From Ceratorhiza oryzae-sativae (lineage: Eukaryota > Basidiomycota > Agaricomycetes > Cantharellales > Ceratobasidiaceae): a DNA stretch of 64,000 nucleotides. The stretch covers positions 1 to 64,000 of the forward strand of contig JARWMV010000042.1 of NCBI GenBank assembly GCA_030998015.1, written 5' to 3'. The position numbers and the translations under genes are program-made. The notes below the pieces were generated by a model that was not told where the DNA came from, made no database searches, and saw only the letters and a list, made by a program, of their open reading frames with translations. Positions within the stretch are counted from its first letter, which is position 1. Every line of letters starts with the position of its first letter. Shown one piece after another: positions 8,465 through 62,990 of the stretch.

Positions 8465-10471
8465 CTATGTACTGCCTAAATGCGAAACTTTCTGCTGTAA
8501 GTTTGAAAGCGAAGTCAAATCAGACGGATCAAGTGACCCCAAGCGTGAAAGAAAAGCCTGTACTGCTTTAAGCGACGCAATGGCCTTGCTTTGGGTCTGG
8601 AGTGGACTAGAGTCGGAGGAAACCTTCCATGTGGTTTCGACATCGTCCTCGTATATGAATTGTCCATTTCTATCCGCCTCCGCCTGCCTTTCTTCCTCTC
8701 GCACCTGGTCTACTATCTCATCGTCAGTGAGTTCTTGCTCGGTTGGCGGGTCTCAATCCACCGAGAGGAACTCCTCAGCGCGCATAGGCTCGACCGGCGC
8801 TACAGTCTACGAGTCTGTAGTGCATCAAGGCTTTGCTGAAGTGCCGATATCGATTGTTGAGTGTCAGGTGTGACAGTCAGTGCTGTGGCTGTCGTCGGAA
8901 GCTCATCTGGAGCAGGCATGGGCCCAGAAAGCTTGGTATGTCGCCAGCAGTTTGCGATCGTGGATGGTTTAACATCACGCCAGGCAGCCGCCGCAAGCTC
9001 CATAGCCTCAGGTTGGTTAATCTTGAATGCATAGCTTTCCCCCTGTTCGTAACGCTCAATAGTCTTCTGGATGTATGCGCTTTTGTACTTAGCTTTGAAT
9101 GACTGGATTATGCCTGCATCATTGGGTTGAATCCAAGCTGTCAAGTTAGGCGAAAAGTACTCGACGTGAACATTCGGATAGTCGTCCGGTTTATGAACGT
9201 GTGATGGCGGATTATCACAGAGCAACAAGACTTTCCGGCCTCCCACAGCCATTTTGGCATCTGGTTTCGCTAGCCACCTATGAAATAGAGTTAGAAAATC
9301 CATGTGTGAATGTGCTAAAATAAACCTACCTTTGCCAAATCTTTCAGTTCATCCAAGCCGACTTGGCCCACCAGTAGTCGTATCCCAGCTCTGTCCCATC
9401 TTTGTGGCCGAAAGGGCGAGGCCGTCGTGCATACCCAATAAAAATGGGATCAAACATCTCCATACCGTCTTCACTTGTACAAAGCCCAGCAGTGATTCGT
9501 GTCCTGCCCAGCTTAATGCCTGATGTTTCAACAGCTGCCAGGCCTTTGTCGGGGGCTAGACGATAGTAGAATGCGGTTTCGTCAAAGTTTAGTCGATCTC
9601 GAGGTGATGGATACTCAGCCATGATGGTGCGGACTCTGTTGATCTCATCAGCAAGCTTTTCAACTGGCGCAGAGGCCGCCTCTCCATGGTACCGGTGTTG
9701 AATTTACAAGCATATGCGTGCATGTATGCGCATTTTTGTTCCTGTTTTGTATCCCCTCTCTGATATCATGCACGAGTTCGCGGGAACCCCCTCTCTGCTT
9801 CCTTAGTTCTCTACCTTCGCAGTTGAGCTGAGGTATCGTATTTCTTTTCATTTCATGTATTTTATTCTCACCGTACTTTGTAGTACGAATTGTATATTAG
9901 GTACAGTGAATACACTGTTCTCTACCTTCGTAGTTGAACTAAGTAAGAATTGTATATTAGCCACGAGAAATCTCCCTGCGTGAGAACCGGTGCTGGCCGA
10001 GTCCCATTCTGGATTGCAAACTATGCAGCCAACCATTTGACAGCGAGAGGAAATTTGCTGGATGCCCCAGTGAGACAGCAAATTCTCGAGCCTTCATGCA
10101 GATTGCTGTACCAGTAAGTCGGGGATGGCGACGAGACGCCAAAACTTGCAATACCCATCGCTGAAGAGCTCGATCAACATCCGGTACTCGGTTTGGCGAA
10201 TTCGCTTGAATCGTAGCTCGTTTGAATTCCGAGCTCTGGCTTATAATGCCTTGTCAGCCTTCAGCCATCTAGAGACCGTGGACCGCGAGATTGTACCAAA
10301 ACCTCGCAACTGAAGGACAGCAACCAGCTTGTCTTGGCTCAGACGGCTCTTGTTAGCGCTACAATACTCCAGAGCGGCGAGTTTATCCTTCAGTGTTAGC
10401 CGGTGCCGTGACACTTGCCGCTTTGGAGTAATTATGGAGGAGTATGTTACCTCCCGCTTCACTTTAGGCAC
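8465..10471 (-). mobile_element. Decayed pogo/Tigger-type transposase
   Basis: Reading from 10471 down there is an N-terminal psq-like helix-turn-helix region (KREVTYSS..., LTLKDKLAALEYC, GFGTISRSTVSRWLKADKAL). After a frameshift near 10245 follows a CENP-B-type DNA-binding half (VLASRRHPRLTGTAICMKA, FLSLSNGWLHSLQSRMGL). The DDE/D catalytic core comes next: FDETAFYY (first Asp, near 9577), LLLCDNPPSH (second, near 9210) and IQPNDAGIIQSFKAKYKS (third, near 9113), with 31 residues between the last two Asp, as expected for pogo. The C-terminal tail is acidic (TEQELTDDEIVDQVREEE). Defects seen: a shift near 10245, an interruption at about 9690-9960, an in-frame TGA after AWMN near 9345, and a stop plus shift near 8800-8830. 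An intron (about 9278-9331) fits before WLAKPDAK. Inactive copy; terminal repeats not identified. Confidence 0.85.
9886..9960. repeat. Short direct repeat within the pogo interruption
   Basis: The 13-mer GAATTGTATATTA occurs at about 9887 and again at about 9947, each near a version of the phrase CTCTACCTTCG(C/T)AGTTGA (9812 and 9922). These duplications lie in the roughly 250-270 bp that separate the CENP-B-like half from the catalytic half of the pogo gene. They could be a tandem slip or the footprint of a small insertion. Confidence 0.45.
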
Positions 10472-10676
10472 GGATAGCTGCTATAATTATGTTAGTTGAT
10501 TGAATATATGTGATAAATATTTTGTACACACACCGGGAATAAGGATACAAGGGTGAAAGTGTAGGCTAAAGCGCACGTAGACTGCTTGTGTTATATAATA
10601 TCTCATTAATCTAGCTACTTTTACAGCATTATGAATTATCTTAGCAATACATGAAGGGCGGATATCGGGTACTGAG

Positions 10677-12129
10677 TACACTGGGCAACAAATCAAATGG
10701 GACATGTGACCATCTGACAGAGAATCAACTGTAAAAGATGAAGGATAGACAATATCAGACACATGTGTTAGTAGAATATATAGCTATATGCCATGTGATT
10801 TCCCTGGCAAAATTTCAGGACAACAGCTTGACTCTATGGCAAGATAATGTTTGGAGAAATTTTTGGCTGTCCCATTTGATTTGACCAATTCATACCTGGA
10901 TGCTCATGCTGGGTAAAAACAGGCTAGCCTGCTCATTTCCTGGTCAATTTATCTAAAAAAAATATGGCAGGCATCTTTTCAACACCATAAGAGTATTTTT
11001 TCAGAGTTTCAGCAAGTTGGGATACACTAATAGAAAGTTATAGGCTGTTCAAGATGCTAGGTTTGCATGCTCTCCCACCCCTTGTTTCACACTGATTTAG
11101 GCAGTTCATCTAATACAAATGACATTAAGACATTCAATGATCATTTATAAGCTCTAAATGCATGAATTAAACCAGCTAAGAGGCACATACAGGAGTGGAA
11201 TTAGCTGGGATACATTTCCACACATACACCCCAATGGAATAAACCAGTCATGCTGAGGGCAGGAGTTCAGCTGGAAGTCTAAAAGCTACATGGATCATAG
11301 TACCCCTGGGAGGGAATCTTTGATCTAAGTTTCAAGGGGACAGGGCAAAGACAAGGAAAGTTACAGACCATGCAGTACAAAAATTGGACTTTTTGATCAG
11401 ATTTACTATGAGATTGGAGACAATTTGCACTGCATGGTCTGTAACTTTCCTTATCTTTGCCCTGTCCCCTTGAAACTTAGATCAAAGATTCCCTCCCAGG
11501 GGTACTATAATCCATGTAGCTTTTAGACTTCCAGCTGAACTCCTGCCCTCAGCATGACTGGTTTATTCCATTGGGGTGTATGTGTGGAAATGTATCCCAG
11601 CTAATTCCACTCCTGTATGTGCCTCTTAGCTGGTTTAATTCATGCATTTAGAGCTTATAAATGATCATTGAATGTCTTAATGTCATTTGTATTAGATGAA
11701 CTGCCTAAATCAGTGTGAAACAAGGGGTGGGAGAGCATGCAAACCTAGCATCTTGAACAGCCTATAACTTTCTATTAGTGTATCCCAACTTGCTGAAACT
11801 CTGAAAAAATACTCTTATGGTGTTTAAAAGATGCCTGCCATATTTTTTTTTAGATAATTTGACCAGGAAATGAGCAGGCTAGCCTGTTTTTACCCAGCAT
11901 GAGCATCCAGGTATGAATTGGTCAAATCAAATGGGACAGCCAAAAATTTCTCCAAACATTATCTTGCCATAGAGTCAAGCTGTTGTCCTGAAATTTTGCC
12001 AGGGAAATCACATGGCATATAGCTATATATTCTACTAACACATGTGTCTGATATTGTCTATCCTTCATCTTTTACAGTTGATTCTCTGTCAGATGGTCAC
12101 ATGTCCCATTTGATTTGTTGCCCAGTGTA
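10677..12129. mobile_element. 1.45-kb palindromic (foldback) DNA element with TA target sites
   Basis: Left arm 10677-11376 and right arm 11429-12129 are near-perfect reverse complements (700 and 701 nt, only a few scattered differences) around a 52-nt loop (11377-11428). The ends read TA-CACTGGGCAACAAATC and GATTTGTTGCCCAGTG-TA, so each end abuts the dinucleotide TA, the target site of Tc1/mariner/pogo elements. No arm encodes a transposase, so it is non-autonomous. It sits directly beside the pogo remnant. CpG is essentially absent. It is much larger than a typical MITE. Confidence 0.85.
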
Positions 12130-13026
12130 TTTCGATTAGAGGTGGTGCATTGCCAGCCTGGGTCTTAGTCAGTGTCCAAGGCTGAATTTGCAATTTGGCC
12201 CATCTCATGCATCCACGGGGGTTATGCAGGATGCCAGTATCCATCATCAGGGGTAAGATTGTACTTGAACTCGTCCACCATGTCCAGAGTTTTGAGCTTG
12301 AGTCTGTTGTCACACCAGCAAGACTGATGACCAAATTGTTTAGGTCATCGGTTAGCAAACCCGCAACTTGGTTGTCACTCCGTTTGGGATATTGCCTTGA
12401 GCATGTTGCTGCATTGCATCAGCCCGAGTAACTTGTGGTGTTTTCTGAACTACGTTTAGGCATTTAGAGTGGTCTTGTGGCCATGGAGTAACAAAATGAC
12501 ACTGGTTTTCTGAAAAAAGGTATATACTAATAGACTTAATATATTTTGCTATACACAAGAGGTCACGGTTGAGCCCGTATTCATTTCGATGGTGAAGCCC
12601 GAACCGAAAACCTCTGTAAATACATCTCATTCGCAGGCCTTCGCCAAGATTTCCAAACAGCAGCACCAGGACGAGCCGTATCTCGTGTAGGGGACTAGTC
12701 TTCCTAAATAGTGGAAAGGATATAATAGATTCAATCAAGGTATTTGTACTGGTGGGCGACTCTTCGGGCCTCGGCACGCTGATCGGGGTGTGTTGATGGC
12801 CACTGATCTCAGCCGCGCAGCACGCCTGTTTAGGAAATAAGCGTGACTATATGCGCCCCCTAGGGTTCAAGGTCCAAAATATGATTTCATACTCCAAACG
12901 CCAGAAAAATCGTAGTGCTGATAGGGGAGGAGGGTGTAATAAAAAGGCGGGGAGGGTGGACCGCAGGCTTCTCCCGACCGCGATCTTTGTTGAATACTCC
13001 TCAAAATAATTACCAAAGTTCGCATT
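12130..13026. other. Intergenic; unidentified sequence
   Basis: Follows the palindrome. A minus-strand stretch at 12140-12360 (LNNLVISLAGVTTDSSS...) and another at 12400-12777 (FGNLGEGLRMRCIYRGFRFG...) stay open but match nothing I know and lack clear exon signals. 12850-13026 includes the promoter of the next gene, with an AT-rich stretch near 12940. Confidence 0.4.
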
Positions 13027-25306: not shown

Positions 25307-26573
25307 CAGTATGAGACAAAAAGGTTCGCGTGTTTTGATCGCAAAGTTCAAAACGCGTATTACTCCTCGACAAGGCCACGAGGTATGATGTAATTGGTAC
25401 CAATCGATAGTATATGACTGTAGCTACAAAACGAATATACATGCGACTCGTTTGGTCTACAAACGGTGGAGTTATAGATGAAACAAGACATGAAAAACAC
25501 TCGAACCATTTTGTCACTTGCATACAACAAAAATTGTTCATGTAAATTATTGAGAAATCGGACCACCTTTTGCTTTCAGAATTTTAGCCATACATTTGGG
25601 CATGCCAGCTATTAACTTTTGGCAATAATCCTCACCAAAATTGTCCCAAACTGCTTGAAACCGATCCCATAGTTCCATAATCCCGCCTGGGGGTGTTCAT
25701 ACTCTCCAAGATGTCGTCTCAGCTCAGCCCATAAGTTTTCGATGGGGTTAAGGTCAGGAGACATAGCTGGCCACTTGAGTAACTCAATACCATGGTCTTC
25801 AATCCAGTTAAGACGCACTTTGGCTTTATGGGAGCTAGCATTGTCTTGCCGAAATATCACCTCCCCAGGCTCCATTCCCAAATGCTCCAGGCTATGCAAA
25901 AGTTCATCACCCAGGATCTCCAGATATAACTCCTTATTCAATGTCCACTCCAGCCTACACCCAAATTCAGTTCCTCCCCAGCCCATACAACCCCAAAACA
26001 TGATTGACCCACCACCAAAATTGGCAGTTGGAACAGTAAGATGTTTACTGAGACCTGACCCTTGCTGTTTCCAGCCCCAATGAACCCCATCTGACCCCAA
26101 CCTATTAATATTGGTCTTGTCTGACCACAGAACACATTTCCAGTCCTCAATAGTCCAATGCCTGTGAGCCCAAGCAAAAGCAAGCTGCTCATCATGGTGT
26201 TTGTGCTTAAGCTGTGGTTTTTTTGGCTTCTTTATAGGGATGAGACCTGTCTCTTTCAGTGCACATTTGACAGTTTTAGGATGTATGGTCTGCCCAGTAA
26301 GTTTGCATAGGGTCTGGGTAGCTTGGCAAGTGGATACAGAGTTGTGGTTGGTGACAAGGCAGATGGCATAGCAGGTAGCAGGGGGATTCAGCTTGCAGTG
26401 ACACCCTCCAGAGGGCTTCACAAGGTCTGGACAATGTGTAGAACAGATTTTAGAGATGGAGCTCTTAGCAATACCAGGTATTCAAGCTCTGATTTGGGAA
26501 TAGCTATGGCCAGAATCAAGTAGAGCAAGCACAGAGTTTATAACCTTGTCAGTCAGTGACTTAGTTATAGGCA
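25307..26573 (-). mobile_element. Tc1-family transposon with disabled transposase
   Basis: The transposase reads from Met at 26573 (MPITKSLTDKVINSVLALLDSGHSYSQI: helix-turn-helix) to a stop at 25547. The catalytic triad is DD34E: VLWSDKTNIN, FRQDNASSH and MSPDLNPIENLW, with 34 residues between the second Asp and the Glu. Defects: an in-frame TGA after SQIRA near 26492, and a one-base shift after EHPQAG near 25690. Beyond the shift the normal tail continues in another frame (LWDRFQAVWDNFGEDYCQKL...MAKILKAKGGP). At 25305 the sequence TACAGTATGAGACAAAAAGG looks like a Tc1-type terminal repeat next to TA. I could not find its partner on the other side. Confidence 0.85.
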
Positions 26574-27519: not shown

Positions 27520-30500
27520 TTGCAGCCTGAGTCCATGTCAGAAACTGCCCAAGAACCAGCAACAAGGAAGAAGAAGAGGCAACATGTATATTACCTAACA
27601 AAATCCAATAATTCTGCCTCAATATCCATCCTTGCTGCTGGAATCATGGACCCCATCAAAACCTTAGTCAACTCAGGATCATCTAAGAATTTCATTGACC
27701 TCAACTTGTGCCAACACCACAACATGCCCCTCACCAGACTCCCAAACCCCAGACCTGTGATTGCCATAGATGGCAAAGAGATCCCAAAGAAGATTGAATT
27801 CAAGACCCAAACAGAGATCAAAGTAGAAGGATTGAAATTCACACCCACCTTCTATGCCATGGATCTAGGAGAAGATACACCAGTCATTTTGGGACTAGAT
27901 TGGCTACAAGAAGCAGGCCCAGATATTAACTGGAAAACACTAGAGATTTCCTGGAAGAAAAAGGAAGTCACTGGAAAAGCTGCAAATGAACCCCAGTCTG
28001 GAATCAACTGGACCAAGGTCCCAAAAGGATGGGAGAGACTCTTCAAGAAGCTTCCAGAACGTTGCCCCTATGATTGCTACATTAACTTCAAAGAGGGGGC
28101 AGAATTGCCCAAACCAGCCAAGATCTACCCTATGTCACCAGTGGAAAACAAGGCACTCAAGGAATTCATTGATCAGGAACTAAAAGACAGGAAAATACAG
28201 CCAAGCAAGTCCCCCATTGCAGAACCTTGCTTCTTTGTCAAAAAGAAGGATGGATCCCTGAGATTAGTCACAGACTATAGAAAGATCAATGCCATCACAA
28301 TCCCAAATTGATTCCCTATTCCACTACAGACCAAACTGGTGGACCAGGTCCAGGGTAAAAAGATCTTCACCAAGATGGACTTGAGGTGGGGATACAACAA
28401 TACCTGGATCAAGGAAAGGGATGAATGGAAGACAGCCTTCAGAACCCACTATGGGATATTTGAATACCTGGTAATGCCATTTGGCCTATGCAATGCACTG
28501 GGGATATTCCAAGAATTCATGAACTGGATCTTCCAAGACATCCTAGGATTATATGTGGTAGTATCCCTTGATGACATCCTAATATTCTCAGACAGTGAGG
28601 AAGACCACAAGAGACATGTGGAGGAAGTCATGTGACAACTCAAGGAAAACAACCTCTTTGCAAAATTCACCAAATGTGAATTTGGTGTCACAGAAGTATA
28701 TTTCCTTGGATTAATCATTACACCTGAAGGTATCTCCATGGAGAAGTCCAAGATCCAAGCCATACTTGATTGGGCAAAACCAGGGACAGTCAAACAGCTC
28801 CAAGCCTTCCTGGGCTTTGTCAACTTCTACAGGTGCTTCATTTACAACTTCAGTAAAATGGCCAGACCCCTTCATGATCTAACACAGAAGGACAAGAAGT
28901 GGGAATGGACCAGGGAATGACAAGAAGCCTTTGAGGAAATCAAGGAAGCAATTGGAAGGACCTAGTCCTAATACATCCAGATTTGTCAAAACCCTTTGTC
29001 CTGGAGACTGATGCCTCAGGGGTAGCCATAGGTGTGGTGCTAAGCCAAAGATACACAGATGGTTACCTGCACCCAGCAGCCTTCATGTCCAAGAGCTACA
29101 ATAATGCAGAATGCAACTATGACATGGCCAACAAGGAATTATTGGCCATTGCAGCAGCCCTCAAACACTGGCACATGTACCTAGACAGAGACCCCAATTG
29201 AGGTCTACAAAAATCATAGGAACCTGGAAAGATGGAAGACGGCAGAAACTTTCAATTGAAGGCATGCTAGGTGACATTTGGAGCTAGCCTCCTACAATTT
29301 CAATATCCATTACAGACCAGGGAAGGTGTCACAGAAGCCAGATGTGCTCTCCAGAAGGCATGACCACAATGATGTCCCTAACCCCCAACAAATCATGATT
29401 GAGGCTGAAAGATTCATTGGATTGAAAGCAGAAACCTCAGTAGATATCATCTCTGAGATTCAAGAAGTCCAAACAGAAGACAAATCCCTCCAGATGCTAA
29501 TCATGAGTACCAAGGAAAAGGAAAATCTACCACCCAGTGTCAAACAACAGTATGACAAATATGAGTGGATGGAAGAACTCCTATGGTACAAAGGGAGAAT
29601 AGTGATCCCAGACAACAAAGGGATCAAACTACAGCTTCTGGAGATGCACCATGATGCCCCAATAGCAGGACACCAAGGACAAGCAAGGACCCTAGAACTC
29701 CTGTCCAGAAGATACTATTGGCCAGGAATGAAGAATCAGGTAAACTGTTTTGTTGAATCCTGTGAAGTCTGTCAAAGAAGCAAGGGACACAAACAATATG
29801 TACCACCAAAACCCTTGCCCATTCCTTCACAGCCTTGGGAAGATATTGCATACAACTTCATTGTGAAACTACCTGATTCCCAAGGATATGACAGCATCCT
29901 GGTAGTCATAGACTGATTCTCCAGACAAGCTCACTTCATACCCTGCTTTGAAAGCATCAATGCAGAAGGAGTGGCAGACCTATTCATCCAGGAGGTATGG
30001 CAATTACATGGTCTGACCAAGACAACAGTATCAGACAGGGGAACTACCTTCAATAGCCAATTCCTCAAGGAACTATACCAAAAGCTGGAGATTGACCCCA
30101 AATTCTCCACAGCCTACCACCCTGAAATGGATGGAATCACAGAAAGGACCAACCAATGGCTAGAAGGATTCCTAAGGAGCTTCTGCAACTACCAACAAGA
30201 TGATTGGGCAATGTGGCTTCCCATTGCAGGATTCTGCCATAACAATCATGTAACTTCTGCTGCAGGGAAGACAGCCTTTGAGACAGTCTATGGGAGACAC
30301 CCCAGATGGAACATCACAGACTTGGAAATTGATTCACTACCAGCCAAACTAACAGCCAAATCAATGCAAGAGATCTGGGATGAAGTCAAGGCTTCCATGG
30401 AATTCCACAGGACAAAAGAGAAGGAACCCCAAAAGAAATATGAAATTGGGGACAAAGTGTGGCTAATCACCACAAACCTGAGGACTGAACAACCAATCAA

Positions 30501-30816
30501 GAAGCTGGATAACAAAAAGGCTGGGCCCTTCACTATCAAGGAGAAGATCTCTTCCCATCCTTACCACCTTGAGCTACCTTCCACCATGAGGATCCATGAT
30601 GTATTTCACATCAACATGCTTCTTCCCTTCACAGAAGACACTGATTTTCACAGATGTCAACTGAGACCACCCCCAATCATCACAGAAGAAGGGGAAGAAC
30701 AATATGAAGTGGACCATGTGGTTGCATGGGAACAAAGGGGAAGCAACTCTACTATCAAATTTGATGGAAAGGCTATGACCCAAGCAAAGATACCCTGGAA
30801 AGGGCTGAAAAAATAG
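27520..30816 (+). pseudogene. Gypsy A pol polyprotein (protease-RT-RNase H-integrase), inactivated
   Basis: Ty3/gypsy order. Protease: LVNSGSSKNFID at 27664-27699, where the catalytic Asp is Asn; ILGLDWL. Reverse transcriptase: [41 protein letters not shown] with Ser for the usual Tyr of YxDD. RNase H: PFVLETDASGVAIG, then HWHMYLD, in another frame. Integrase: H2C2 zinc finger (HHDAPIAGHQGQ...CEVCQRSKG), VVID-stop-FSRQAHFIP, VSDRGTTFNSQF, ERTNQWLEGFLR. Tail: GPFTIKEKI...HDVFHINMLLPF, a typical GPF/chromodomain-like end, stop 30814. Disabling changes: TGA codons at 28309, 28633, 28918 and 29914, each where relatives have Arg, and frameshifts on both sides of RNase H (about 28960 and 29200). 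CpG is nearly absent. An old, dead copy. Confidence 0.9.
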
Positions 30817-31959
30817 CCAAACTCCCTCAGATCATGAAGGACTTAGTCAAGCAACACCCAGAGGCCCCTCTACCAAAGAACTACAAACAAGGACAAAAAG
30901 GGTATAAAAGAAAGGGGGGGGGAGCCTCAAACCTCAGCATCTTCTACTCAGCACAGCTACCCAGAAATCCCTCCCACTCACAACTCTTCAACACTCTAAA
31001 CCTCTTTTACCCAAACCAACCATGCCTGCCCAATGCACTGCATTCACCCCCATTGCCACCACCACTGCCACCCAAAAGGGTCTCAAATGTAAGCCAGAAA
31101 TCCAGCACTCAACCAGAAACCAGTGTAACATCACCACTACAGTCTTGTGCTGCATGTACTCCTACCAGGAGGCAATCAAGCAGTGCAACTCCTTTATCAA
31201 GAGCTACAACTACACAAAGTCACTGGACCCAGAGGCTGAGCTGGACTACATCCCTATGCAAGAGCACTGGGGATGCAGGTGGGTCAACTACAAAACCCTG
31301 CACTGCCCCAAGCAGGGTGACCTGGAGTGGGTGGGTGTTATGGATCACTAACATTTTCTATTATTTTAGTCTGCTCTGCCAACCTCAAGCAATGCCTCTG
31401 TAATTAATTTGTGAAATACTTGAATTTGTATGCACTCCAAATTGTACTATTTTCCATTCCATTAAATAGTACAAATTTCCCGCTCTCCAACGCTTATTTT
31501 ATTAAGTTTTTACGATAAGATCTCAGAGAGATACAGAGGTTGCGATATTTCTTCTTATCAGGAGATATTGATTACAACATCACACCACTCATATCTCGGC
31601 AACCGCTTACGCTATCAAAGCGATCTTGTGCTCTATCGATAGCTAATCTTCGGCCGTATCTGCTGCCTGAAGATCGTCGCGATACACCGGATCCTCGCGC
31701 CGGAATGGCCTGAAGATCATTAGAATCTTACTGGACCATCAATCAAGATCTAATGACTCCAGTCAGTCAGGAGAGCTTCCCAAATTGATCCAGAAGCTTC
31801 TCTGACTCACTTTATGACTCACTGAGATGTAGCCTCTGTTCATTACATGTATATACTATGATAATATGATCTACAAGCCAATAGCAGGTCTCAGATGCAT
31901 CAATGCCTTCAATCCACACCCTGTCTTTACTCTCTTATCCTATACTGGGCTAGGGTGTA
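30817..31959. other. Gypsy A 3' region and unidentified DNA
   Basis: A purine tract ending in G9 near 30912-30922 could be the polypurine tract. 31022-31351 stays open on the plus strand without a known domain. 31430-31750 is not CpG-poor, unlike its flanks, so it has a different history. Confidence 0.35.
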
Positions 31960-32276
31960 CCCCAAGTATAGCAGTACCCTCTTTTGATGATTGCACTGGC
32001 ATGCATGCATCTATTTGGCTCTGGAATGCCCTCCTCAGGGTATAAAAGGACCTCCTCTGAGGCCCTTCCAGACCACCCCTTCACTCCTCTACTCAACCCA
32101 GACTGGTTATTGGTTTCCTTTTTCTCTTTCTCTTTCTCTTGTCTGTGTGTGATTTCTTATATAACTAGTACTGAGGAATAAAGTACCATATTAGTTATAT
32201 ACTGTCTGATTCATTGTATCTTATATACAGAGATTTATAAGGATACAATATTGCCTGATTGAGCGTGACATTAAGT
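31960..32276 (+). repeat. LTR-like promoter/terminator segment
   Basis: Has a TATA box (TATAAAAGG at 32041), a pyrimidine-rich start region with CACTCCTCTACTCAACCC, a (TTTCTC)n tract and AATAAA at 32177, in the order expected of U3-R-U5 on the plus strand. No second copy is seen in the window, so it may be a solo LTR. Confidence 0.4.
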
Positions 32277-32655
32277 ACCAGCTATTAGAGGAAATCTAAG
32301 TACCTGTAGCTGAGGAAGTACACACATTAGGCAGCCCACCATTTATCCTATAAGCTACTGCTTAAAGTCTAGTATTAAGATTAGTATCAGTTAGTCCAAG
32401 CAACTAGGGCTGAACTACATTTAAGATATCTAAGGGAACCTGACCATAGTAGTCTTGCTCTTTATACCTATAAATTAGTCAGTTTACACTGTGAAAGATT
32501 AAGACTACCTTGAGTGTTACTTGATTGCATTGCAACTACTTTGAGCCTTCTTACTCTAGTCTAAGAAGTATTGAGTACAATTAGTGTATACTAACATATC
32601 TACATTGTTAAGCTCTAGATATTCAAGTGTACCCTGACCCATAACATGTACTCAT
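32277..32655. other. CpG-poor spacer between LTR-like segment and gypsy B
   Basis: Short irregular repeats such as TTAAGTACC and TAGT-rich runs. No coding potential recognised. Confidence 0.35.
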
Positions 32656-35600
32656 AACAGTGACGTGTGGAATACAGGGTGGATACCTCTAGTGCACATC
32701 TCTTTCAGTAAGTCAATTTCATACAAGGCTCCTTGTGTGAGCACATGTGCCACTTTATATGGTCCAATGTGTTTTGGGGCTAGTTTGCAGGCCTGGCCCT
32801 TCAGTATGAGCATGTTTTGTGTTGATACATATACTAATTCACCCTCTTTGACTGTTGCAGGTTGTCAGTGCTTATTCACTTGCTTTGTCATTCAGGCTCA
32901 CATGTCAATGAGTGCATTGTGCATGGTCATGATTGCAAGCTTGATGCATCCAACATGTTCACTTATGCCCGGGAATTTCAATTCCATGTTCTGAACCATT
33001 AGGGAGGGGGTTCTACTGTAGTTGAGGTGGAACAGCAATAGTCCAGTGGCTTCCGATCACACTGTATTGACTGCAAATTTGATTGCAGGTAAGTTCTTTG
33101 CCCAATCCTTTTGCATCTTACCAGTGCACATTCTCAGTAGGCTCATGTATGTCCTTTGTACACACTCAGTCATACTGTCAGTCTGGGGATGATACGACAA
33201 GGACATCTGGAGTTTGGTCTTGGTCAGCTCCAACAGCCTTGTCCAGAATGTCAATGTATATAGTGAGTCCCAATCTGATACTATTTGTTCTGGCATCCTG
33301 TGTAGTTTGTAGACATGTTTGAATATGATCTCCACAACATCTTTTGCAGTATATTCTTGTTTTGTCAGTATCAGGTGTACCATCCATGTGAGGCTATCAA
33401 TTATGGTTGTGATCATGTTGAATGCACTGTATCATGTCTCGGACTTGGGTAGTGGTCTGACAAAGTCCACACCAATAGATTGCCATGGGTACAACAGTAC
33501 AGGCATGGCCTGTAGCAGGCCCATAAGTTTCTGTGTGCTTGCTTTGTTTGCCATGCATGTACTGCACAATTTGCAATATTGTTTAACATCGGGTACCATC
33601 GTTTTCCACCATACTTGAGTTCTCAACCATGCTTACATTTTCTTTGCCCCTAGATGCACAAGAATGGAATGTGCATGAGTAATGATCACTTCATGTACTG
33701 ATCTTTTGCCAATCATGATGTCCAGCATGCATAGGACTAGGCTCTTGTCCCTTTGTAAGTACAGTATGTTGTCCTGTATCTTGAAGTTTCAATACTGACT
33801 TGTTTCAGACATGATGTGACTTAGCGTCAGGTTCTCCTTGTAGTGGCCCTTCAGGCTCTCTGGTAGCAAGAACTTGGTCACACATTTGGTGAGTGCTGTT
33901 TCTTGTTCAATTTTGGGTTTATTCTCATGATGCACTTGTTTCTTCTCAGGTTTGGGCTCTCTTGGTGACTTGCTTGGCTCGACTTTTGTTGAGTCAGCCA
34001 TGTCCTGTGTGTCTGGACTTGGCTCAGGTTCCCTTTTTGTTTGGCATTTACACTCAGGTTGTCCAAGGTACTTTTCTACCTGTTTACACTCATGCTGACC
34101 TTGTCTAGGCTCCTTGGTTTGTTTCTGCCAAGCTGCTAGTTTGGCCTTGATCCTGTCTCTACCATATAGCGGTTGGGTAAGTTCTTCAGTGGCTGTGCCG
34201 CTTTTTTGGACTGATCCAACCAGGATGTCCAGTGTCTCTGGATCCAGGTCAGTCACGTATTCTGACTTGTGCCTAACCACTCCCTCTGGTTTGTTACTGT
34301 AGATGTGCAATAGCGCATCAGTGAGTACATTTGTTTTGCCTGGCATGTAATTAACATCTAAGTCGAATTCATTGATCTTCTCTAACCATCTTGTTTGTCT
34401 AGCTGATAGTTGTTGTTGGGTTGAGAAGAACTCAAGTGCTTTATGGTCTGTGAACACTCAAACTTTAACCCCCTGTAGTAAGTTTTTGAATTGCTCTAGG
34501 ATTCTTTTATGGCCAGTAACTCCTGTTTGTGCACAGGATAATTTTGTTGTGTAGCTGTAAATTTACCCAACCAGAATGCCATGATTTTGGCCATCTTTAG
34601 ATCCTCGCCTTGGCTCACAACTCCGCTTGCACCAGTGCAGCATGCATCAGTGGTCAGATTGATTGGTGGGGTGCCAGATGAGTAATCCAATGCTACTCTG
34701 TTCAAATTCCAATATTTTGACATGATTTCCTGGACCTCAGTGAATGCATGTTGTTTGGTTGCCTCCCATTGCCATGGCTGCATCATCAATGCACGTTTCG
34801 ACAGCACTGCCATTGGGATCCTAACATCAGCACAATTCAGTGCTAGATATCCAACTGCACCCAAGAAACTCATCAGTTGTTCTTTCAAATTCAGCACTTT
34901 CCATTTCTTGATCACGTTGACTTTGTGCAGGTCCATTGCGATGCCCTTGCTTGTGATTACATGTCCAAGTATTTCCAGGTGTTCGGCAAATAGTTGCATC
35001 TTGTTGGGGCTTAGGTAAAGTTTTTCCCTCTGTAGCATGTCAAATACCATCTTAATGTGTTTTTCATGTTCTTCAGCTGTATCCGAAAAATTATTATATT
35101 GTCAAGGTAGACAAACATAAATTTACCAATAAATTCCACAAAAATGTGGTTCATGAGGGCCTGGTACGTTGCTCCTGCATTACAGTCTCCTTGCTGTGTG
35201 ACTTGACTGACCATTGTCCCATTAGGTGTCATAAATAACAATCTGGATACATGTTCTGGGATAATGTGTATCTGCTCATACATGTCCTTTCCATTGATCA
35301 GGCTACGGTATGGGTGCTGAGATACCTCCATGAGAATATAGTTGATGTTGCAATTTTCCCATCCTTAGATTTCTTCATGAGGATTTGCATCAGAGTTGCA
35401 TTGATGCCTGGTCAGTATTCCCATTGGCCAGTGTTCAGGTAAGCCCTGAATTTCTTGTTAAATAGCCCTTCAAGTGGTTTTGGACACTGAACTTGGCGTG
35501 ATTTGTAGCACTTTGTCTCATCAATGATCAGGATCATATGATTGATGGTGCAGAATGGCAGGAGTGGGGTTTCAGCCATGGATTTACATAGATCGGCCCC

Positions 35601-37175
35601 ATATTCTCTCAATGCCTCTCATCTTTCCTCAATTTTGTCTTTGAACAGTTGAGCTGCAAGGGATTCGATTACTAATGACCATTCACATTATATCAGCTGC
35701 ATGTCATGGTTGCCAATTGATACAGCTGGTGGGTTGAACAAGACTATTACTTTGTATTGGTAAAGAAATGGAGTGCCTAATATCATATCATAATTGTCCA
35801 GGTATATCACATCAAATTGGTGCATCTTGTCAATGCCCTGATACCCCAAACGTGCCAAGACCAAGTAGTTTATCACACTGCATGAACCTGTTACCACCAT
35901 CTGTAACCCAATCAGTTTTGCTAACGTCTCATGCTCAAGTTTGAGCTGGTCGACAACTGTTGTAGAAATAAAGTCACCAAGGGATCCAGTGTTGATTAAG
36001 GCACATACCTTCTGTCCATTTACCATTGCCTCTACTACAATTGGTTTAGATAGTTTTCACATGATATCTTTCAGCTGCGCTGTGTTCCGTTCAACAACCC
36101 TTGTGCTCAATTCCCTGTGCTTTTTGTCTCCTACTCAAAGCATGTTGAGTTGAACACTTAGGTTGTTTTCTTCAGAATCTAGTTCTGGTTCAGTTGCATT
36201 TAGACAGGTGCTCAGGCCAGCAACCAGTTTCTGGGTTTCTTCATTGTCCTTGTCACTCATGCTCCAGTTCAGTACCCATTTGTCTTTGGTGAGTAGCAAA
36301 TGTCCTTCTTTGGGTATGGGTGTTAGGGTCTGATTATTTTCCTTGTCAGCCCTTGCGTGTTCTTGTTCAGTTGCAAGATACACCTTGCATACCTGTTGTG
36401 CAATTTCCACATATGTCATGTCAAAGGTGATCAGGTTATTCATTGTGATGTGGAATCAGTCTGTGTCAGTTACCACAATGCTCAAGTACAGGGTTATCTT
36501 GTCTAGTATCTCAGTGAGTAAAGATCCTGTGTGCAAAGTATCAAAATATAACAAACTGTACAAAGTACCTGACTTGTTCAAGTTGGTTTTGGCTCTGTTG
36601 TGTGCACTTCTTGGCTGAATATTCACAATACTGACATTCACAATCTTGTGTTCTTTGTGTAGCTGCTTGATGAGGTCATATGTTGGCTTTAGAGCTGTGC
36701 TGTATACACTGGTGGGTTTTGCTGTTGTACAAGATGGGCAATCCTTGACTGTATGTCCAGTTTCCTTGCACAAATAGCACTTGCCAGCTGTGTGAAGCTC
36801 ATTCCGCTCTTCAGCTGACATCTTTGTCCTATTCAGCTTTGGCTTTTGGTTGCATGGACACCCTTGTTGTGGCCTGGATGGTCTGGCCTGATTTCAGGGT
36901 GGATATGGAGGTTTTGCTTGGTTCTGTGATCCTCCTGGCAGGTTATTCAGTGGAGGAGGCAGGGTTGGGTTTGACAGTGGGTTTGGTGGGCCTCCCAGTG
37001 AGTACCTTCGTGGTCCAATGTGTTGTCCCATATGCCTAAACATCATCCTCAATGCAGCTTGCAGGTCTGGCACTGGTTGCACCCTTCACTTAACCTCTTT
37101 GGCCACTTCAAAACATTCTGCTGACTCATGCATTTCATCTAGATCTGCAGTCTCCGCATTGATACCTGCCTCAAT
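32656..37175 (-). pseudogene. Gypsy B pol (zinc knuckle to integrase), inactivated
   Basis: Reading leftward: zinc knuckle CYLCKETGHTVKDC (near 36740-36780); protease ALINTGSLGDFIS (Asn at 35992-35994 in place of catalytic Asp); reverse transcriptase with YEQIHIIPEHV..., a broken palm and FVYLDNIIIF (second catalytic Asp is Asn, 35098-35100); EILGHVITSKGI; RNase H TTDACCTGASGVV and FTDHKALEFF; a spacer rich in Lys/Glu; integrase zinc finger (HSILVHLGAKKM...CKLCSTC), IIDSLTWMVHLI, IVSDWDSLYT and a catalytic-Glu region TDSMTECVQRTYMSLL; and a GPYKVAHVL...HPVFHTSLL tail near 32690. Many stops and shifts separate these pieces. CpG is strongly depleted. The domain order and tail mark it as Ty3/gypsy (chromovirus-like), distinct from gypsy A and C. 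Confidence 0.85.
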
Positions 37176-39082
37176 TCATTTAGTTTTTAGGTACCAATGT
37201 ACAGTGTCCCATAGTTTAATGCATAGCTGATGGTTGGTTATATCAGGTATCCTCTGTTGAAGGTGTTTCAGCAGTCTCAGGTAGTTGATGAATTTCATAT
37301 TTCCTTGCCACGCATCCTTGAAGTCGTGTTGTAGTTGCTCTTTGAGGTTGGGTGGGAAGCAATAACTGAACAATCCTATTTTTACCAAGTTGACAGTATA
37401 TTTCTTCAGATCCAGTGCCACAAAATCCATGTACCACTGTGTGGCCTTGTCTTGTAGGAATGTGCCAACATATTGGACTGCTTTTTTGTTCCTAAATCCT
37501 GACTCCTTCAACCATTGTTTGAGCTCATAGACCCAGAGCTCAAAGTCATTGTAGTCAGGTTGCCCATAATACAGTGAGGGTTCCTTGAGTTTCACCACTG
37601 TGCATTGTGCTTTCCTAATTTCTTTTCGCAGTTTGCAGGTTTTCTCACAGTATTTCACCCTTCGCTTGGCCTTGTAGCACTTGTAGCTCTCACTACTCTT
37701 GTTCTTATGCTTTTTCTTACTGCCCAAACTGCTTGAGCTACTTGAGCTGCTTGATTTGTCCAAGCTATCAGAGCGATCTGACTCACTTGAACTGTCCAAA
37801 TACCCAGGTCCTGCTGAGTCATCCAATTTGTCCAAGCTGTCTGAGCTGTCTGTGCTCAACAACTTGCTGCTGTCACTAGGTGGGTTAAACCTTGCTTGCA
37901 TGTTCTCAATATTTGACTGATCAAATCTGACACTTTTAGCCTGTATTTTCTTGGCAAAATATCCTCCTCCTGGCAGTGTGGCAATGCTGGCCCTTAAGTC
38001 CATGGGTTTAGCCAGGGTTTTCAGTGCGGTCTGCAGTTTGATCAGGTGTATGTTGTCAATCATGATGCCCAGCGAAGGTTGTGCTTGACACTTAACTTTT
38101 TCAGACATCTTGCACCCTTTGCTCAACAGCATGGTCTGTGAGTGATTGGTCTTTGTGGCCAATTTGTCCAATTTGTATTTTACATTTGCCTCATAATCTG
38201 TATCTTTAACCCATTTTCCTTTGTTGAAGTATGATGGGCCAGCTTGTGGGCTTTCCTCATGTGTGACTTCAGTCGACTTCCAAACCTCAATCACTGGGTT
38301 TTTGTTGTCAGTCGGGATAGGGTAGACATTGTCTTCCCAGAGTGTTGATTCATACCCTTTGCTCATGCTTAGAGCTTCCTTGATTTCATCAAGGAGCAGT
38401 TTGGAGTTTGGGATTTCCTCTGACAAAACCTTTTGCACATTGCGAAGGCACTTTCTGTCTGAGATGATTTGATTTAGGTATGCCATGTCCTCAGTGCACT
38501 GTTGTTTTGCTGACTTTTTCTTTGGTTTGCTCAACTGTTTCAAAGTCTTGTTGGAGCATTGTTCAGGCTCAGGCTTGATGTATGTATGTATATTGAATGC
38601 ATTTGTATCTAATACACTATTCCCAAACCATTTTGCACCCTCCAGCCTTGTGCTTGGGGTTTTCGAATATGCTTTTGCCTTGTGGCTAGGCATTTGAAAT
38701 GGGGTGGTCAAGGCCTTGGTGCCATCTTTGATGGTTGCCTCTGTGTAGGTGTGAAACAATGGTGTGTCCATGCATTTGAATTCAGGCCATGTCGAATTGG
38801 GGTATGTTGGTGGCTCCATAGCCTGTCCAATTGCACTCTCCACAGGGCATGGTGTGACACCTACACTTGCTGATGGGGGGCATGCTTGGGGCTCCTGCCT
38901 GGCTATGCTCTCCCCAGAGGGGCACAACTCATTGTTGGTGTGCTCCTCATACTTGGTTATATGTGTGTCTGCAAGGCGCTTGTCAAGTTTGTCACTGTTG
39001 AACTTGGGTGTGGAGTCAAGGGGTGGTCTACTGTAATTGACAGGGCTTGCAGCAAACAAACCAGGTATTTTGAGGTTGGCGG
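37176..39082 (-). pseudogene. Gypsy B gag (5' end cut by gypsy C)
   Basis: A long open gag frame: low-complexity N-terminal half, a Ser/Asp-rich stretch (SDSLDKLDDSAG..., SSSSSSLGSKKKHKNKSS), then a retrotransposon gag/capsid domain (YNDFELWVYELKQWLKESGF, VGTFLQDKATQWYMDF, GNMKFINYLRLLKHLQQRIPD) ending at a stop at 37176. The frame happens to stay open into gypsy C's left terminal repeat, giving an apparent Met at 39131, but the true N-terminus is probably the displaced piece at 46091-46258. Confidence 0.75.
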
Positions 39083-39197
39083 TGCAGTAGGGGTTGGAGA
39101 CCAGGATGTCCAGCACGGCGCCGGCAGTCATGTGACTTTGTACATAGATTCCTGTATCTCATCTTGTCCACCATACCCTCTGCCTGCGGCGTGTCCA
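39083..39197 (+). repeat. Left 115-bp terminal repeat of gypsy C (candidate LTR)
   Basis: TGCAGTAGGGG...GTGTCCA, identical to 45976-46090 except two A/G differences. Very short for an LTR. The likely promoter, with TTTAAACACG and a C/T-rich start region just before the gag ATG (about 39340-39394), lies outside it. Confidence 0.65.
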
Positions 39198-39394
39198 CCG
39201 TGGTGACGAGAGTGGTGATTTGGACACACAGGCCGCATTGCGCGTATTGAGCACACGGTTGCTCAAAGTACGCAAATTTTACCTCAATTCTTTAGGGTCG
39301 CCCTTGCGCCCCACACGTTTTTTTTTCTTTTTTTTTCCGCCTTTAAACACGCCTCCCCCGCCTTGCCTCTTGCTCTAAGTCCCTCTTGCCCACG

Positions 39395-41289
39395 ATGACA
39401 AGAAAGGAGCAGGCTTTACCTCTATGGGACGACCAAGGTCGCTTCCTTCCCCGTTCTGCATCTGCATCATCATCTACCGCCGTTCCCGGTGCTTTCCCCA
39501 CTCCAGTTTCCCTTGCAGGACCTCAGGTCTCTACTCCCCCTGTTCCATCACCCGATTCTAGTTCCCCAAGTCTTGATTCTCTTATTCTCGCTGAATCCAG
39601 CGGCCCTCCTACTCCATACATTCCCTTGTCTAATCTTGCGCCCCCTGGCGTTCCGTTTCCTAGCCCGTTACCTGATCCACCACCTAATCCTTTTCTTTCT
39701 CCGTCTACTCCTACACCAGCCACACACGTTCGTCGCCTAGCCACCTATTCTGATCCACCTCGCCCATCTGCTGCCATTGTTGACCGCCTTGCGCAAACCT
39801 ACGTCATTACAGCACCTACTGTGGCGGTCTCAGCCGCTCAACCTACCCAGACGACGCCCAATCCTCCCCCGGCAACTACCAACTCCCCCCAGACCACGCA
39901 CGCTTCATCTAGGACCTCCAATATGTCGAAGGACTTGCAAGCCGCTCGTTCAAACTTGAGCTCGCTCCCGAGATTCAACAATGACATGGATCCAATGCGC
40001 AAAGCCCAGTGGCGCCATAACTTCACTGTAGCTACCCGCAGAGTTACTGATGATGAGCAAGCGCAGTTGTGGGCCGACTGGTTGGTGTTCCAGGGTGTCG
40101 CATACGATTGGTACGAAGCGTTGCAGCAATCCAGGCCGGACGGGATGCGCGATTCGAAGGACTGGACAAAGCTACTCCCTCTCATTGAAGCTTGCTGGCC
40201 TACTCCAGCCCATGATCCGTTTGTTCTGGCCGAGCAGAAACGCCATCATTGGGACAACAGTGTTCTTTGGGTGGACGACATCCTGGCAGCTCTCATGGAC
40301 GAATCAAACCCTGTCAAGCCTCACAAGGTTTGGGCCAAGCAACATTTGTCGCGAGGCAAGGACCGAGGCAGTTCAAATGCTGATCTAGTCCATGACACGC
40401 TCAAGAGGGCGATCCCATACTACCTGATCCCGATGCTCCCAAAGCGTTCTCGCTACGGCTCAGACTTCGAGGAGCTGTGCAAGGATATCGGCGAGCTTTC
40501 CTCCAGCGAGATCGTGCAGGCGTGGAAGTTTGAACAGGCCATCTCCTTGTTCCAAGGCCTTTCAATGGGTCCGCCGCTGCCAGCCGAACAACCGGCTCCC
40601 CGGACGCCTGCTCGATCGACCTCTCCTCACCCAAGCAGCCTTCGTAGGAGCTCTGCATATGTCACGCCCCAGACACCAGTCCCAGCACCGTCGTTTCCCG
40701 CTGCTCAAGCAACCCCTCGCACCCAGCAAGTCATTTCGCAGGAGCTGCACCTGAGACGCCAGTCCCCAATCCTCCAACCTGGCAGAACCCTCCACATCAA
40801 CCAGCAAGCCAGCTGTTCGCATCCACAGCAGCCAACGCCGCTCCTACGGGACCACAGCCCCCGAGTCGCCAGCCCTTGCGCGACCCGGTCCCGGAACTCA
40901 TAGCTGAGAACACCCCGAGCGAGAGGGCTAGGTACAACGGCCTGGTAGTAGAGTTCAACACCAAGTACGGCGAGGATGCCACACCGACTATGTCGAGCCT
41001 GTACCCTCTGTCTCCCAGTACCTTCAAGCAGACGAGGGATGTGTGTATTAAGTGCGGTCGCGCTTTCCACACCGCGGTGCAGTGCAAGGACCGGAGCGTT
41101 TGGCTTCCCGAGTCGGAACGCACCATGTGAGGGGTGCTGCTAGGTTCACTTATTCGCTCTTCGCAAGCAGGTACCGTCCCCGGCACTCCAACCCCAGGCC
41201 CTCGTTTCGTGCAAGACACAGCCCAGTTGGAGGAAGAGGAAGAGGAACAGGTGGCGCAATATATGTCGGAAAACGAGCAGGGTCAGTGA
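39395..41289 (+). pseudogene. Gypsy C gag
   Basis: ATG 39395 (MTRKEQALPLWDDQGRFLP) opens a Pro/Ser-rich N-terminal region, then a capsid-like domain (SLPRFNNDMDPMRKAQWRHNF, LWADWLVFQGVAYDWYEAL, AWKFEQAISLFQG). The first frame stops at about 40901. From about 40750 the conserved reading is one frame over (PVPNPPTWQNPPHQP...), with a zinc knuckle CIKCGRAFHTAVQC (41044-41085). That frame has an in-frame TGA at 41127 (Met-stop-Gly) and then an acidic end (EEEEEEQVAQYM...EQGQ), TGA at 41287-41289. So gag carries one shift and one nonsense codon. Confidence 0.75.
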
Positions 41290-57847: not shown

Positions 57848-60800
57848 TTAGTTTAGCTCGGGGTTCAGCACGGGATCGGGGACACCGTCTTTGTTGTTAA
57901 ACTGAGTGTGCGCACCTCGAGTCCGGTCCAGGATTGCCCATGTGTTTCGACCGCCGACTTTGATCCTTCCCACAGCAGCATGTACTGTACCAAGATTGAT
58001 AATGTGGGCAGTGTCGAGTCGGTTATATGTAACAAGAGGGGTCTCGGGTCGTGTCGCGTCGAGGCCGCGCGTATTGCACTCTTGTACGAGAGCGAGCAAA
58101 TAGGGCTTTCGAGACTCAACACTATAACAGTGTTAGTGTATAGTAAGGAGGGCGGAGTCGATCAATGCTTACGGGTGATTTTGCTTACATTCAACATAGA
58201 ATATGTCCTGGACATGGCCATAGTGGATCACACGATGTGGTTCATCCTCGCAAAGGCGCTGTCGATAATTTTCGTCTGGCAATAGCTCATACTAGAAAAG
58301 TCGTTTGTTAGTCCATCAAGCATGATCAGAATATATATTGTAGCACATACCCGTATGAATGAGTTATCGCGAGCGATTGATGATTGCTGAATCAGGTGAG
58401 CAGCGCGAACTCGGTCCCCCATACTCGCCATGCGGAACCGACCATGGCGAACGAGTGTGTCCCAGTCAATCTTGTCGTGCAGCTCCTGGTACGTGGCCCT
58501 TCGGCTAAATTCCTCAGCCAGTCCAAAGTACCTAGTGAATCTTCTCTTGAGCTGATCACTAGCGCGATACCGCCGATTGACCGGTTGGCCAAGCGTGTAG
58601 TCATGGTCTACAGACATTTAGATATCAGGATACTATATAGTTAAGGCGGGGATATGCTACTTACTAACATCGTATATCACCTCTTTTGTGGATGTCATCT
58701 CTCCCTCTTGGGGCGCTATTCGGGTGGTCGGTCGTACAAGCGAGGGCATATTGTGTATCTGCGCCACGATTTGTAGCTGTGCACGCCGTCGGATGTAGTT
58801 GTCAAGAAATTCGTACGGTCGAACCCGGTTCATGAGGGCAGGTCTGAGTAAGTGACCACAAAAACGCTCCACGACGAAGGACCATGTAGCCGAGAGCGGA
58901 CCGGCCCGGCGAATATAATAGGGGATGTGGAACAGCGCATGGATCGTCAAAACGCAGGCTGGGAGCCGATCGTGGTCGTATCGATAATAGAGCCTGCTCG
59001 TCTCAATGGTGTGAATTAGGGATGGACGGTTTAAGATTACATACCTCTCGTAGTCTTGAACCCAGTTCCGAATCTTCTCCTCGAGCTCGTCGACCTGTGC
59101 GAGCGTGATTTTGAGTTCGAGACACGAAACAATTATCTCACGCATCGCTAAAAAGTGCCTGATGTGACATATAAGCACAAGAACTAGGCGGTATATACGA
59201 AATAAACTCACTGGTAGTATTCATTCGGGAGCACTCCGTTGAGTAAGATAGGCCCGAGGTATGTAAACCAAAACGAATGAGCTTCAGCCTTGTACAAGTG
59301 GAAATCTTTATCGATATCAGGTATTGTACCGACGAACTGCGCTGGTATCGTCTTCGTCGCTTCTGCGGTCCGTTCTCCGATTAGTTTCCATACAGCGTTA
59401 CCTAGAGCGTATGGTTCGTCGCCCTCCGTGATCCATTTGAACGTCCCCTTCCAGTGCTTGACCATGTTGGGGACCAGATTTTCGAATATGAGATGCATCA
59501 TTTCATACGGGGCACAACTCGAAAGGTCGATTGATTTGAGGCTGGCAAGCACAGGCTTGCCGTGAAAACCACACTTCTGCGAGAGTCGGGTCCGTTCTGG
59601 GGAGTCTGGAAGCCTAGAAAGTCGATCATAGAAATACGAAAAATTGTCGTGCGTGCGCACGAAAGGAATCAAATTGTCGGGAGATGTCACAGCAGCTTCT
59701 TGGCCAGGGGGTTTAGGGACAGTCAAGGGAACATAGTACGTCACTGTGCAACCATGATAGAGTGTCCCCGGCCAGAGACACGTATGACACGGAGTCATGG
59801 CGTTATGGCCCCTAAGCATTAGTAATTTGGAGATGGCAGGGATATCACCGAAAAGGATAATAAGGAAAGCTTGAAGTTTGAATGCAACGGTATCGCCCTG
59901 AAGGCCTCAATCCCAACCATTACTTTAATTGCATCAACGCCCTCAGCGAGCTGCAAAAGCTCTTCGACAAGAGGAACGAGAAAAGAATTTATATCCTTAC
60001 ACTCCTTAGGTCCAGGAATAACACCGACACAGATAATATTCTTGAGGCGTGTCCGAATTGAAGTATGGCGGTTGTAGTTTACCAACATCAGTGGCCACGC
60101 CGTTGAAGTCCCCTTACGCCATCGTCGCTTGAACATAGTGAAACCATCAGTTCCCAGACCGAGAGCAACATCATCGGGATTATCAAAGTACTGGTAATTA
60201 TCGCCCGCCTTGACCTGAATATGCTGGAGTGTTTGATATATCTTGCCGTCGAAGACATCCGATATAATCCCAGGGTGAGTGGCTCGATGCGCTTTGTGAT
60301 TGGCGCGGTGCCACATATCTGTTATAGTACACGCGTTTTGAAACAGGCCGATCAGTGGGGGATGGGGGGAATATATGTGAATTTATGGCAGGACTTCCCA
60401 TTGCTGAACCGAGCATTGACGCAATAGGGGCACGCATCCAGGTCTCGGTACTTGCCGAGATAGCAGATACACGATTCAACACAACAGTTGTATGTGCGAG
60501 ACTCCAGGCCAGAGAGGATCTTGAGGCGCTGCCAGGCAACGAAGTCGCTTGGGAGCCCGAGCTCTTCACAGGTGTGTAATCATAGGTCCTTGTATGTTGC
60601 CTGCAAAAAGTGTGATTGGAGTCGGGCAGCCAGGAACTTGAGGGTCTTGCGATCTGTATCAGTCAAGTCGCGGTTGACTAGAGGATTGGGTTAGGATTAA
60701 GCAGAGTCGGCCTAAAGAGATAAAACTTACACATTTCGATCCATTCCTCATAGGCAATATCGCCAAGGTGATGTTGTAGAAAGGCCAGCAACTCTTCATT

Positions 60801-61110
60801 GTTCATCTCTGGTTCGTTGTCAACGTCCAAACCAGGTGGGCCATCATCACTACAAAAACCGTAGGTGTAATGAAACAGGGGGGTAGTGTAATTGGGGTAA
60901 CGGCATGTAAATGCTCATTGTTACTCCATTAAACCAGTGTCATTTGGCGTAATGACACCATTAACCTAGCCCCTGTTTTCATTACACATCATTATGCACA
61001 GTGACACTTTCAGTTATTGTAGTGATGTTCATGGAACTTGGGGTCTTGCTCAGCACTGCCTACAGAGGAATTGTCAGCTTGAATGATTATAGGGACAGAT
61101 GTCTCAACCC
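57848..61110 (-). pseudogene. Tnp2-type (CACTA) transposase gene, minus copy, disabled
   Basis: Aligns along its length with the plus copy at 49905-53458. N-terminal part: AEQDPKFHEH, then a 177-bp insertion, then GPPGLDVDNEPEMNNEELLAF. Downstream: LKFLAARLQSHFLQATYKDL-stop (TGA for Cys), YNCCVESCICYLGKYRDLDACPYC, YFDNPDDVALGLGTDGF, KRRWRKGTSTAWPL (Trp kept here), VIPGPKECKDINSFLVPL, a one-base shift near 59900 before VAFKLQAFLI, GHNAMTPCHTCLWPG, THDNFSYFYDRLS, AEAHSFWFTYLGPILLNGVLP, NWVQDYERY, SATWSFVVERFCGHLL, VDELEEKIRN, IDWDTLVRHGRFRMAS, and an end at NPELN, TAA at 57850-57848. Divergence from the plus copy is substantial, so they are not a recent inverted duplication. Confidence 0.85.
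60848..61024. mobile_element. 177-bp MITE with CACTACAA ends
   Basis: Starts CACTACAAAAACC and ends GTTATTGTAGTG. Inner blocks GTGTAATGAAACAGGGG and its inverse CCCCTGTTTTCATTACAC extend the pairing. AT flanks both ends. Removing it plus one AT restores the Tnp2 reading ...FHEHDGPPGLD, as in the plus copy (FHKHNGPLGLD). Confidence 0.85.
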
Positions 61111-62150: not shown

Positions 62151-62154
62151 AAGA

Positions 62155-62652: not shown

Positions 62653-62990
62653 AGGTGGTCATACCAGTGTCCAAGGCATGCTTTGCAAGTATGAAGCACA
62701 ACAGACACATTGATCAGTCTGGGAAGGCATGCTCAACTCACCAGTCAGCATAGCTCAAGTGCACATGTTGAACTCCTATGTATGTTGATACAGCAAATAT
62801 ATAAATACCATTTATGGCTATTCATAAAACCTGTATATGAACAGTAACATCCAATTGTGCAGTGAGTGCCTGTTGACTCAAATGCTGATTGGCCCTGCTG
62901 ACACACCCTTAAATGGTACACACTGTGCCTCGCCCCCTTTCCAACCTTTCTTGACATCCCCACAATGCACAAAAACCATTGTAGACAAGA

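Follow-up and report, generated by a model that had tools for sequence, protein, structure and literature searches.

The window, by which we mean the whole stretch of 64,000 nucleotides analysed here, contains a 1453-bp palindrome that is very probably a non-autonomous fold-back Tc1-like (DD34E, DDE_3) element, which would be mobilised in trans by elements of about 1.6 kb having the same ends. The target TA is duplicated on insertion and the ends are common to the palindrome and to an element encoding a DDE_3/DD34E transposase; because the ends are shared, the ~1.6-kb Tc1-like elements are the candidate source of transposase. The first-pass annotation had already proposed a non-autonomous foldback element, and this proposal is now supported by further copies, by empty sites and by the ends shared with Tc1-like elements.

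The general description made from the letters alone, of two inverted arms of about 700 nt with terminal inverted ends, TA at both borders and no coding capacity, agrees with what was measured. The arms (705 and 706 nt) are 99.15% identical across 706 columns, with 5 mismatches and 1 gap, the termini are TACACTGGG...CCCAGTGTA, each end consisting of TA followed by CACTGGGCAACAAATCAAATGGGACATGTGACC, and the palindrome fully encloses no ORF reaching 50 aa, two ORFs crossing a border. The loop, given at first as 52 nt, measures 42 nt. No tRNA was detected in the window by ARAGORN, and one of the five neighbouring proteins scanned has a Pfam match (window:8800-9303:-). Chance cannot account for arms this long and this identical, and the structure recurs across the assembly. 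The features are collected in Table 1.

Table 1. Location of the palindrome, of its parts and of related sequences (plain coordinates are window positions; those with a contig name refer to the assembly)
Feature	Location	Strand	Details and basis
Whole element, including both target TA	10677..12129	.	1453 bp; arm alignment and empty site
Left TA (target duplication)	10677..10678	.	lone TA at the empty site
Right TA (target duplication)	12128..12129	.	empty-site alignment
Left arm	10677..11381	+	705 nt
Loop	11382..11423	.	42 nt
Right arm	11424..12129	-	706 nt
Outer end motif CAAATCAAATGGGACA, left	10689..10704	+	element position 13-28; presumed transposase site
Inner inverted motif copy, left	10868..10883	-	element position 192-207
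Inner inverted motif copy, right	11923..11938	+	motif search
Outer end motif, right	12102..12117	-	motif search
DDE_1 (pogo-type) matches of the landing-site repeat, outside the element	8944..9502	-	profile match; equal spacing at C233
Interrupted or truncated family copies	C250; C20:30531+53780; C249:316956; C241:1006718+1049273; C32		genome search
Distant palindromic relative	C236 (L034)		genome search
End alone, outer 35-39 nt	C8 and C4:300280		genome search

Using the first 724 bases of the element as query against the same assembly (48.8 Mb, 253 contigs), we obtained 57 matches, a number to be taken as a lower bound. Grouped by place, they form at least 24 family loci, namely 19 full-length copies (the window copy and 18 further ones) and 5 interrupted or truncated copies, so that the search for other copies suggested by the first-pass annotation was successful and the window element belongs to a real transposon family. 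Since contig C198 (21 kb) seems to be the C249:577733 locus assembled a second time, the distinct family loci may number 23. The distant relative L034 has the same length as the window element (1453 bp), and its inner arm aligns with that of the window element with a score of -70, against -237 for shuffled sequences (s.d. 17, the highest of 200 reaching -186). Relatives of L034 with a single arm (343 + ~108 bp) were also seen at C12:85058-85509, C114:31529-31980, C47:22602-23052 and C46:36483-36929; the first three of these (L055-L057) have a flank in common, and the piece thus seems to travel within a larger repeat.

Target sites were compared in 20 copies, comprising 18 full copies (L017 being left out), L023 and L034. 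TA is found on both sides in 18 of the 20, L014 and L029 each having one altered base on one side, and the insertion-site consensus, taken over the 20 sites on both strands, is ATATATAT (n=40: A at -3 in 29/40, T at -2 in 21/40 and A at -1 in 23/40, with -5 and -6 near even). This preference is of Tc1 type, and one paper describes it for ZB, SB and Bari (PMC7913693). For the window insertion, a genome-wide search with the joined flanks recovered an empty site at C233:148651-148932 (98% match across the join; C14 also matches, at 74%), which aligns with the window flanks over 482 of 482 columns with no gap, carries a single TA and differs by 11 substitutions, all transitions. Four sites were tried in this way, and the three besides the window copy gave no genome-wide match across the join. 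A separate search with flanks joined by one TA (25 queries, 21 of them with both true ends, against the extracted loci only) gave spanning matches of about 90% or better for L015, L023, L026, L027 and L029; for L014, L024 and L032 the matches were weak (70-77%). The join region is ungapped for L015, L026 and L027, whereas L029 is off by 5 nt some ten bases away and L023 by one nt at the join itself. The single-TA empty sites that the first-pass annotation had asked to look for therefore exist, for the window copy and for these five others, and since they carry one TA, the element inserts into TA and duplicates it, with a preference for ATATATAT.

Another reading of the palindrome, which we consider very unlikely, is that of a selected hairpin-RNA locus, the arms being kept complementary by selection for a long double-stranded RNA that benefits the host or the element. 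The arms are indeed kept complementary and the element folds as RNA at -1341 kcal/mol, but no Rfam family reaches its gathering score in the window, the many copies in unrelated places with TA duplications have the look of plain insertions, and upkeep of the arms through repair accounts for the same fact.

With respect to the mobilising enzyme, the palindrome carries the ends only, each end having an outer 16-nt motif and, about 180 bp further in, an inverted inner copy, and this motif is the presumed binding site of the family transposase. With 3 mismatches at most, a 28-nt end pattern is found at 78 places in the genome, against 0 for its backward control, and several pairs of such ends bracket ~1.6 kb containing a DDE_3 match (C53, C240 and C237). 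In L041 and L042, the motif lies at 13-28 and, inverted, at 193-208 from each end; L043 has the outer and inner motifs at the sole end found, L034 has both with mismatches, and L045 a single inner motif copy within 3 mismatches. Of the 28 end positions, 2-4 differ between the palindrome and the nearest Tc1 ends. We also considered that the arms could be a piece of a Tc1 coding element, and this was not supported: beyond the family and L034, only the outer 35-39 nt were found, at two places, and the stretch between the motifs is just weakly like Tc1 ends (the two ends of L042 score some 3 and 4 s.d. higher than shuffled sequences, and the L043 end falls below the best of 200 shuffles).

The best preserved protein of this partner family, that of L043, has DDE_3 and HTH_Tnp_Tc3_2 domains, the latter being found in the two best proteins from same-ended elements, and matches Sleeping Beauty 5cr4 with E=1e-46. 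From motifs, we take D152, D244 and E279 to be its catalytic residues, 34 residues separating the last two. Among the best 120 of 2678 matches in a large protein collection, its top six relatives come from Rhizoctonia solani and Ceratobasidium (69-80% identity), and the host is thus probably a member of this fungal group. None of the copies read (L043, L041, L042, L044 and L035, in a genome with 129 transposase matches) encodes a plainly intact transposase: L043 has one end in the stretch taken and a C-terminus that departs from its kin, L041 and L042 keep both ends but have substitutions at catalytic positions, and L044 and L035 are broken. A further Tc1-like DDE_3 transposase remnant, 32% identical to L043 and with one internal stop, is found in the window at 25705-26532 on the minus strand.

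The first-pass annotation had named a Tc1/pogo transposase, and the Tc1 half of this name is the one that fits, as the same-ended elements hold DDE_3. Movement by a pogo/Fot1-type (DDE_1) transposase is slightly less probable still than the hairpin-RNA reading. TA is a pogo target as well, DDE_1 matches number 76 across the genome and one such region lies 1.2 kb upstream of the palindrome; against this, DDE_1 is found at nearly the same distance from the filled site in the window and from the empty site on C233 (1175 and 1176 bp), hence it is part of the target repeat, a dispersed one that carries DDE_1 and received the palindrome. Moreover, no inverted repeat resembling the element ends flanks the DDE_1 region of the window, where the end motif is confined to the palindrome, and the elements with common ends hold DDE_3.

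The architecture is that of the known palindromic Tc1 derivatives, in the mould of C. elegans Tc6 and Tc4, which to our knowledge are known mainly from worms. Tc6, a Tc1-related palindrome ~1.6 kb long, is non-coding and has Tc1-like ends at TA; the window family resembles it in being a non-coding palindrome with Tc1-type ends at TA, and differs in its sequence and in belonging to another phylum. A MITE in the narrow sense is short (under ~800 bp) and of high copy number, unlike the present family with its 1.45 kb and at least 24 loci. Tc4 is similar in size to the window element. It is likewise a fold-back element with a mover of the Tc1/mariner superfamily (PMC6829131, PMC11071193), the second paper presenting it as a DDD element whose recognition site is CTNAG and whose target duplication is TNA; the window family, by contrast, duplicates the two-base TA and has a DD34E partner transposase. 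Sleeping Beauty-type IR/DR elements have ends with an outer and an inner motif as direct repeats (PMC7827188). The transposase kinship, the ends of ~210-220 bp with outer and inner motifs and the TA target are all shared with Sleeping Beauty, but the inner motif is inverted in the palindrome, L041 and L042, and the palindrome is gene-less. Long inverted arms and a tie to chromosomal rearrangement are shared with the Galileo/Foldback-like elements of Drosophila, for which PMC4168063 gives 7-8-bp target duplications and a P-type transposase, as opposed to the TA and the Tc1-like partner of the window family. In a search of open-licence papers, among the matches listed, we found neither a fungal palindromic Tc1 derivative nor a study of concert between the arms of such a derivative.

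The window element contains no CpG at all, whereas its 2-kb flanks have CpG observed/expected ratios of 0.87 and 0.91. The ratio ranges from 0 to 0.07 in the 19 full copies, which are CpG-poor even amid CpG-rich flanks (L009, L012, L020, L022 and L030), and is 1.04 in the L043 element. The copies have likely lost their CpGs by decay at methylated sites, and since all 19 are alike in this, the family probably descends from a CpG-poor ancestor. When the window flanks (10437-10676 and 12130-12371) are compared with the C233 empty site (L076), CpG is present only in the empty copy at 8 of the 11 differences and only in the window at 1 of the 11; the loss of flank CpGs is thus on the filled side, a pattern that methylation around the insertion would produce. 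Elsewhere in the window, positions 28000-40000 and 60000-64000 have CpG observed/expected ratios of 0.10-0.33, compared with ~1 in much of it.

The two arms of one copy stay alike while the copies diverge. Within a copy, the arms are 97-99.7% identical and differ on average by 0.93% (19 full copies, a value including an alignment-edge excess in L030), whereas in the same set left arms of different copies are 5.07% apart and left versus right arms of different copies 5.20%. In a count of all paired columns from 18 copies, in which the duplicate L017 is left out, departures from the majority affect both arms in 328 cells and one arm only in 107, or 300 and 66 once positions 270-310 (a homopolymer region) and the apex, starting at 695, are excluded; dealing the right arms to other copies gives an expectation of 68 for both-arm changes (s.d. 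24, largest value 182 in 200), against the 300 seen. In a tree of 42 arms from 21 copies (L034 as outgroup; L016, L021, L028 and L031, truncated or broken up, omitted), a copy's own arms are exclusive sisters in 17 of the 20 ingroup copies, with bootstrap values of at least 98 in 15 of the 17 (L009 79, L030 84); the exceptions, L010, L013 and L017, argue against perfect concert. Among the mismatched arm positions, 61 of 73 are private to one copy; the mismatch at position 701 (A/G), 4 nt from the loop, is common to 17 of 18 copies, and those at 282 and 283, inside the homopolymer region, to 6 copies each.

That the arms are alike merely by reason of a recent origin of the palindrome, with no homogenisation, is a reading of very low probability: it accounts for the high identity within copies, but copies differ by 5% where arms differ by 0.9%, both-arm changes number 300 against the 68 expected when arms are dealt to other copies, the arms are sisters in 17 of 20 copies, and the distant L034 retains arms that are 99.7% identical. 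Arm likeness likely comes from arm-to-arm copying or mismatch correction in a hairpin-folded strand, and such folding could occur in replication, repair or transposition. L034 and L032, two isolated lineages with alike arms, lean towards conversion in place. The C249 and C198 copies have 10 left/right arm differences in common, no position at which the two arms of either contig acquired an identical new base, and, in C198, 2 sites changed in both arms to different bases; this speaks weakly against fast conversion in place there, as 7.9 kb of flank show 0 or 1 substitution between the contigs and the two may be the same locus twice. The some two dozen copies make it possible to measure how the arms of a long palindrome stay alike in a eukaryote.

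One family copy occupies the centre of a ~22-kb palindrome at C249:567600-589300 (L051, L013, L052). The mirrored sequence spans the entire stretch examined (99.4% over 10,855 columns) and is absent at 566000, where 0 of 9 mirror pairs matched; contig C198 has equivalent mirror symmetry over 9,845 columns. The 7.9 kb adjoining the element differ between the arms by 1 substitution and the element's own arms by 12, while the outer 1.75 kb have 30 differences, CpG being involved in 27 of 33 variable columns. This duplication was perhaps nucleated by the hairpin of the element: after a break near it, the strand would fold at the palindrome and copy its flank, and the fold-back would be closed by recombination between copies of an outer repeat. 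In yeast, fold-back inversions arise via hairpins and are mostly resolved by homology (PMC7467729). If so, the C249 copy may represent a natural fold-back duplication seeded by a transposon hairpin.

False inverted duplications occur with long reads, and an assembly fold may be the alternative explanation of the ~22-kb palindrome, whose arms are nearly identical beside the element on both C249 and C198; extended to the family as a whole, an assembly or sequencing artefact is implausible and the least probable of all readings, in view of the different surroundings of the 19 full copies, of their TA duplications and of the empty sites, and this holds for the window copy as for the family. We regard as rather doubtful, though worth stating, a joint scheme in which the folding strand corrects the arms against each other, the gene-less and CpG-free transposon outlives its decaying coding partners and the hairpin occasionally folds the chromosome back, as at C249. 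For annotation, a class of 1.45-kb palindromes in this fungus is accounted for and linked with a Tc1-like partner family. The points worth following are the concert of the arms, the inversion of the inner motif and the duplication at C249.

Several other copies are rearranged. The family copy at C20:30888-53780 (junctions L033 and L021) is interrupted by 22.9 kb; its pieces overlap by 8 bp (AATAGAAA) and the junctions carry inverted ends, which points to a large nested insertion or a nest of insertions. A second copy, at C241:1006871-1049273 (junctions L040 and L028), is interrupted by 42 kb, the overlap being 3 bp and the ends inverted and of CACAGGAACTCATGG type. The pieces at C32:60837-60998 and C32:97878-100390 (L039, L031) belong to one copy, are oppositely oriented and lie 37 kb apart with further inserts, which looks like an inversion or a composite rearrangement via nested elements. 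On C249, a different Tc1-like element of 1594 bp with CACTGGCTT ends (L023:3070-4663) is nested between TA in the right arm of a palindrome copy, whose arms remain alike despite it. Finally, the last 770 bases of the right flank of L020 consist of a tandem repeat with a unit of ~135 bp.
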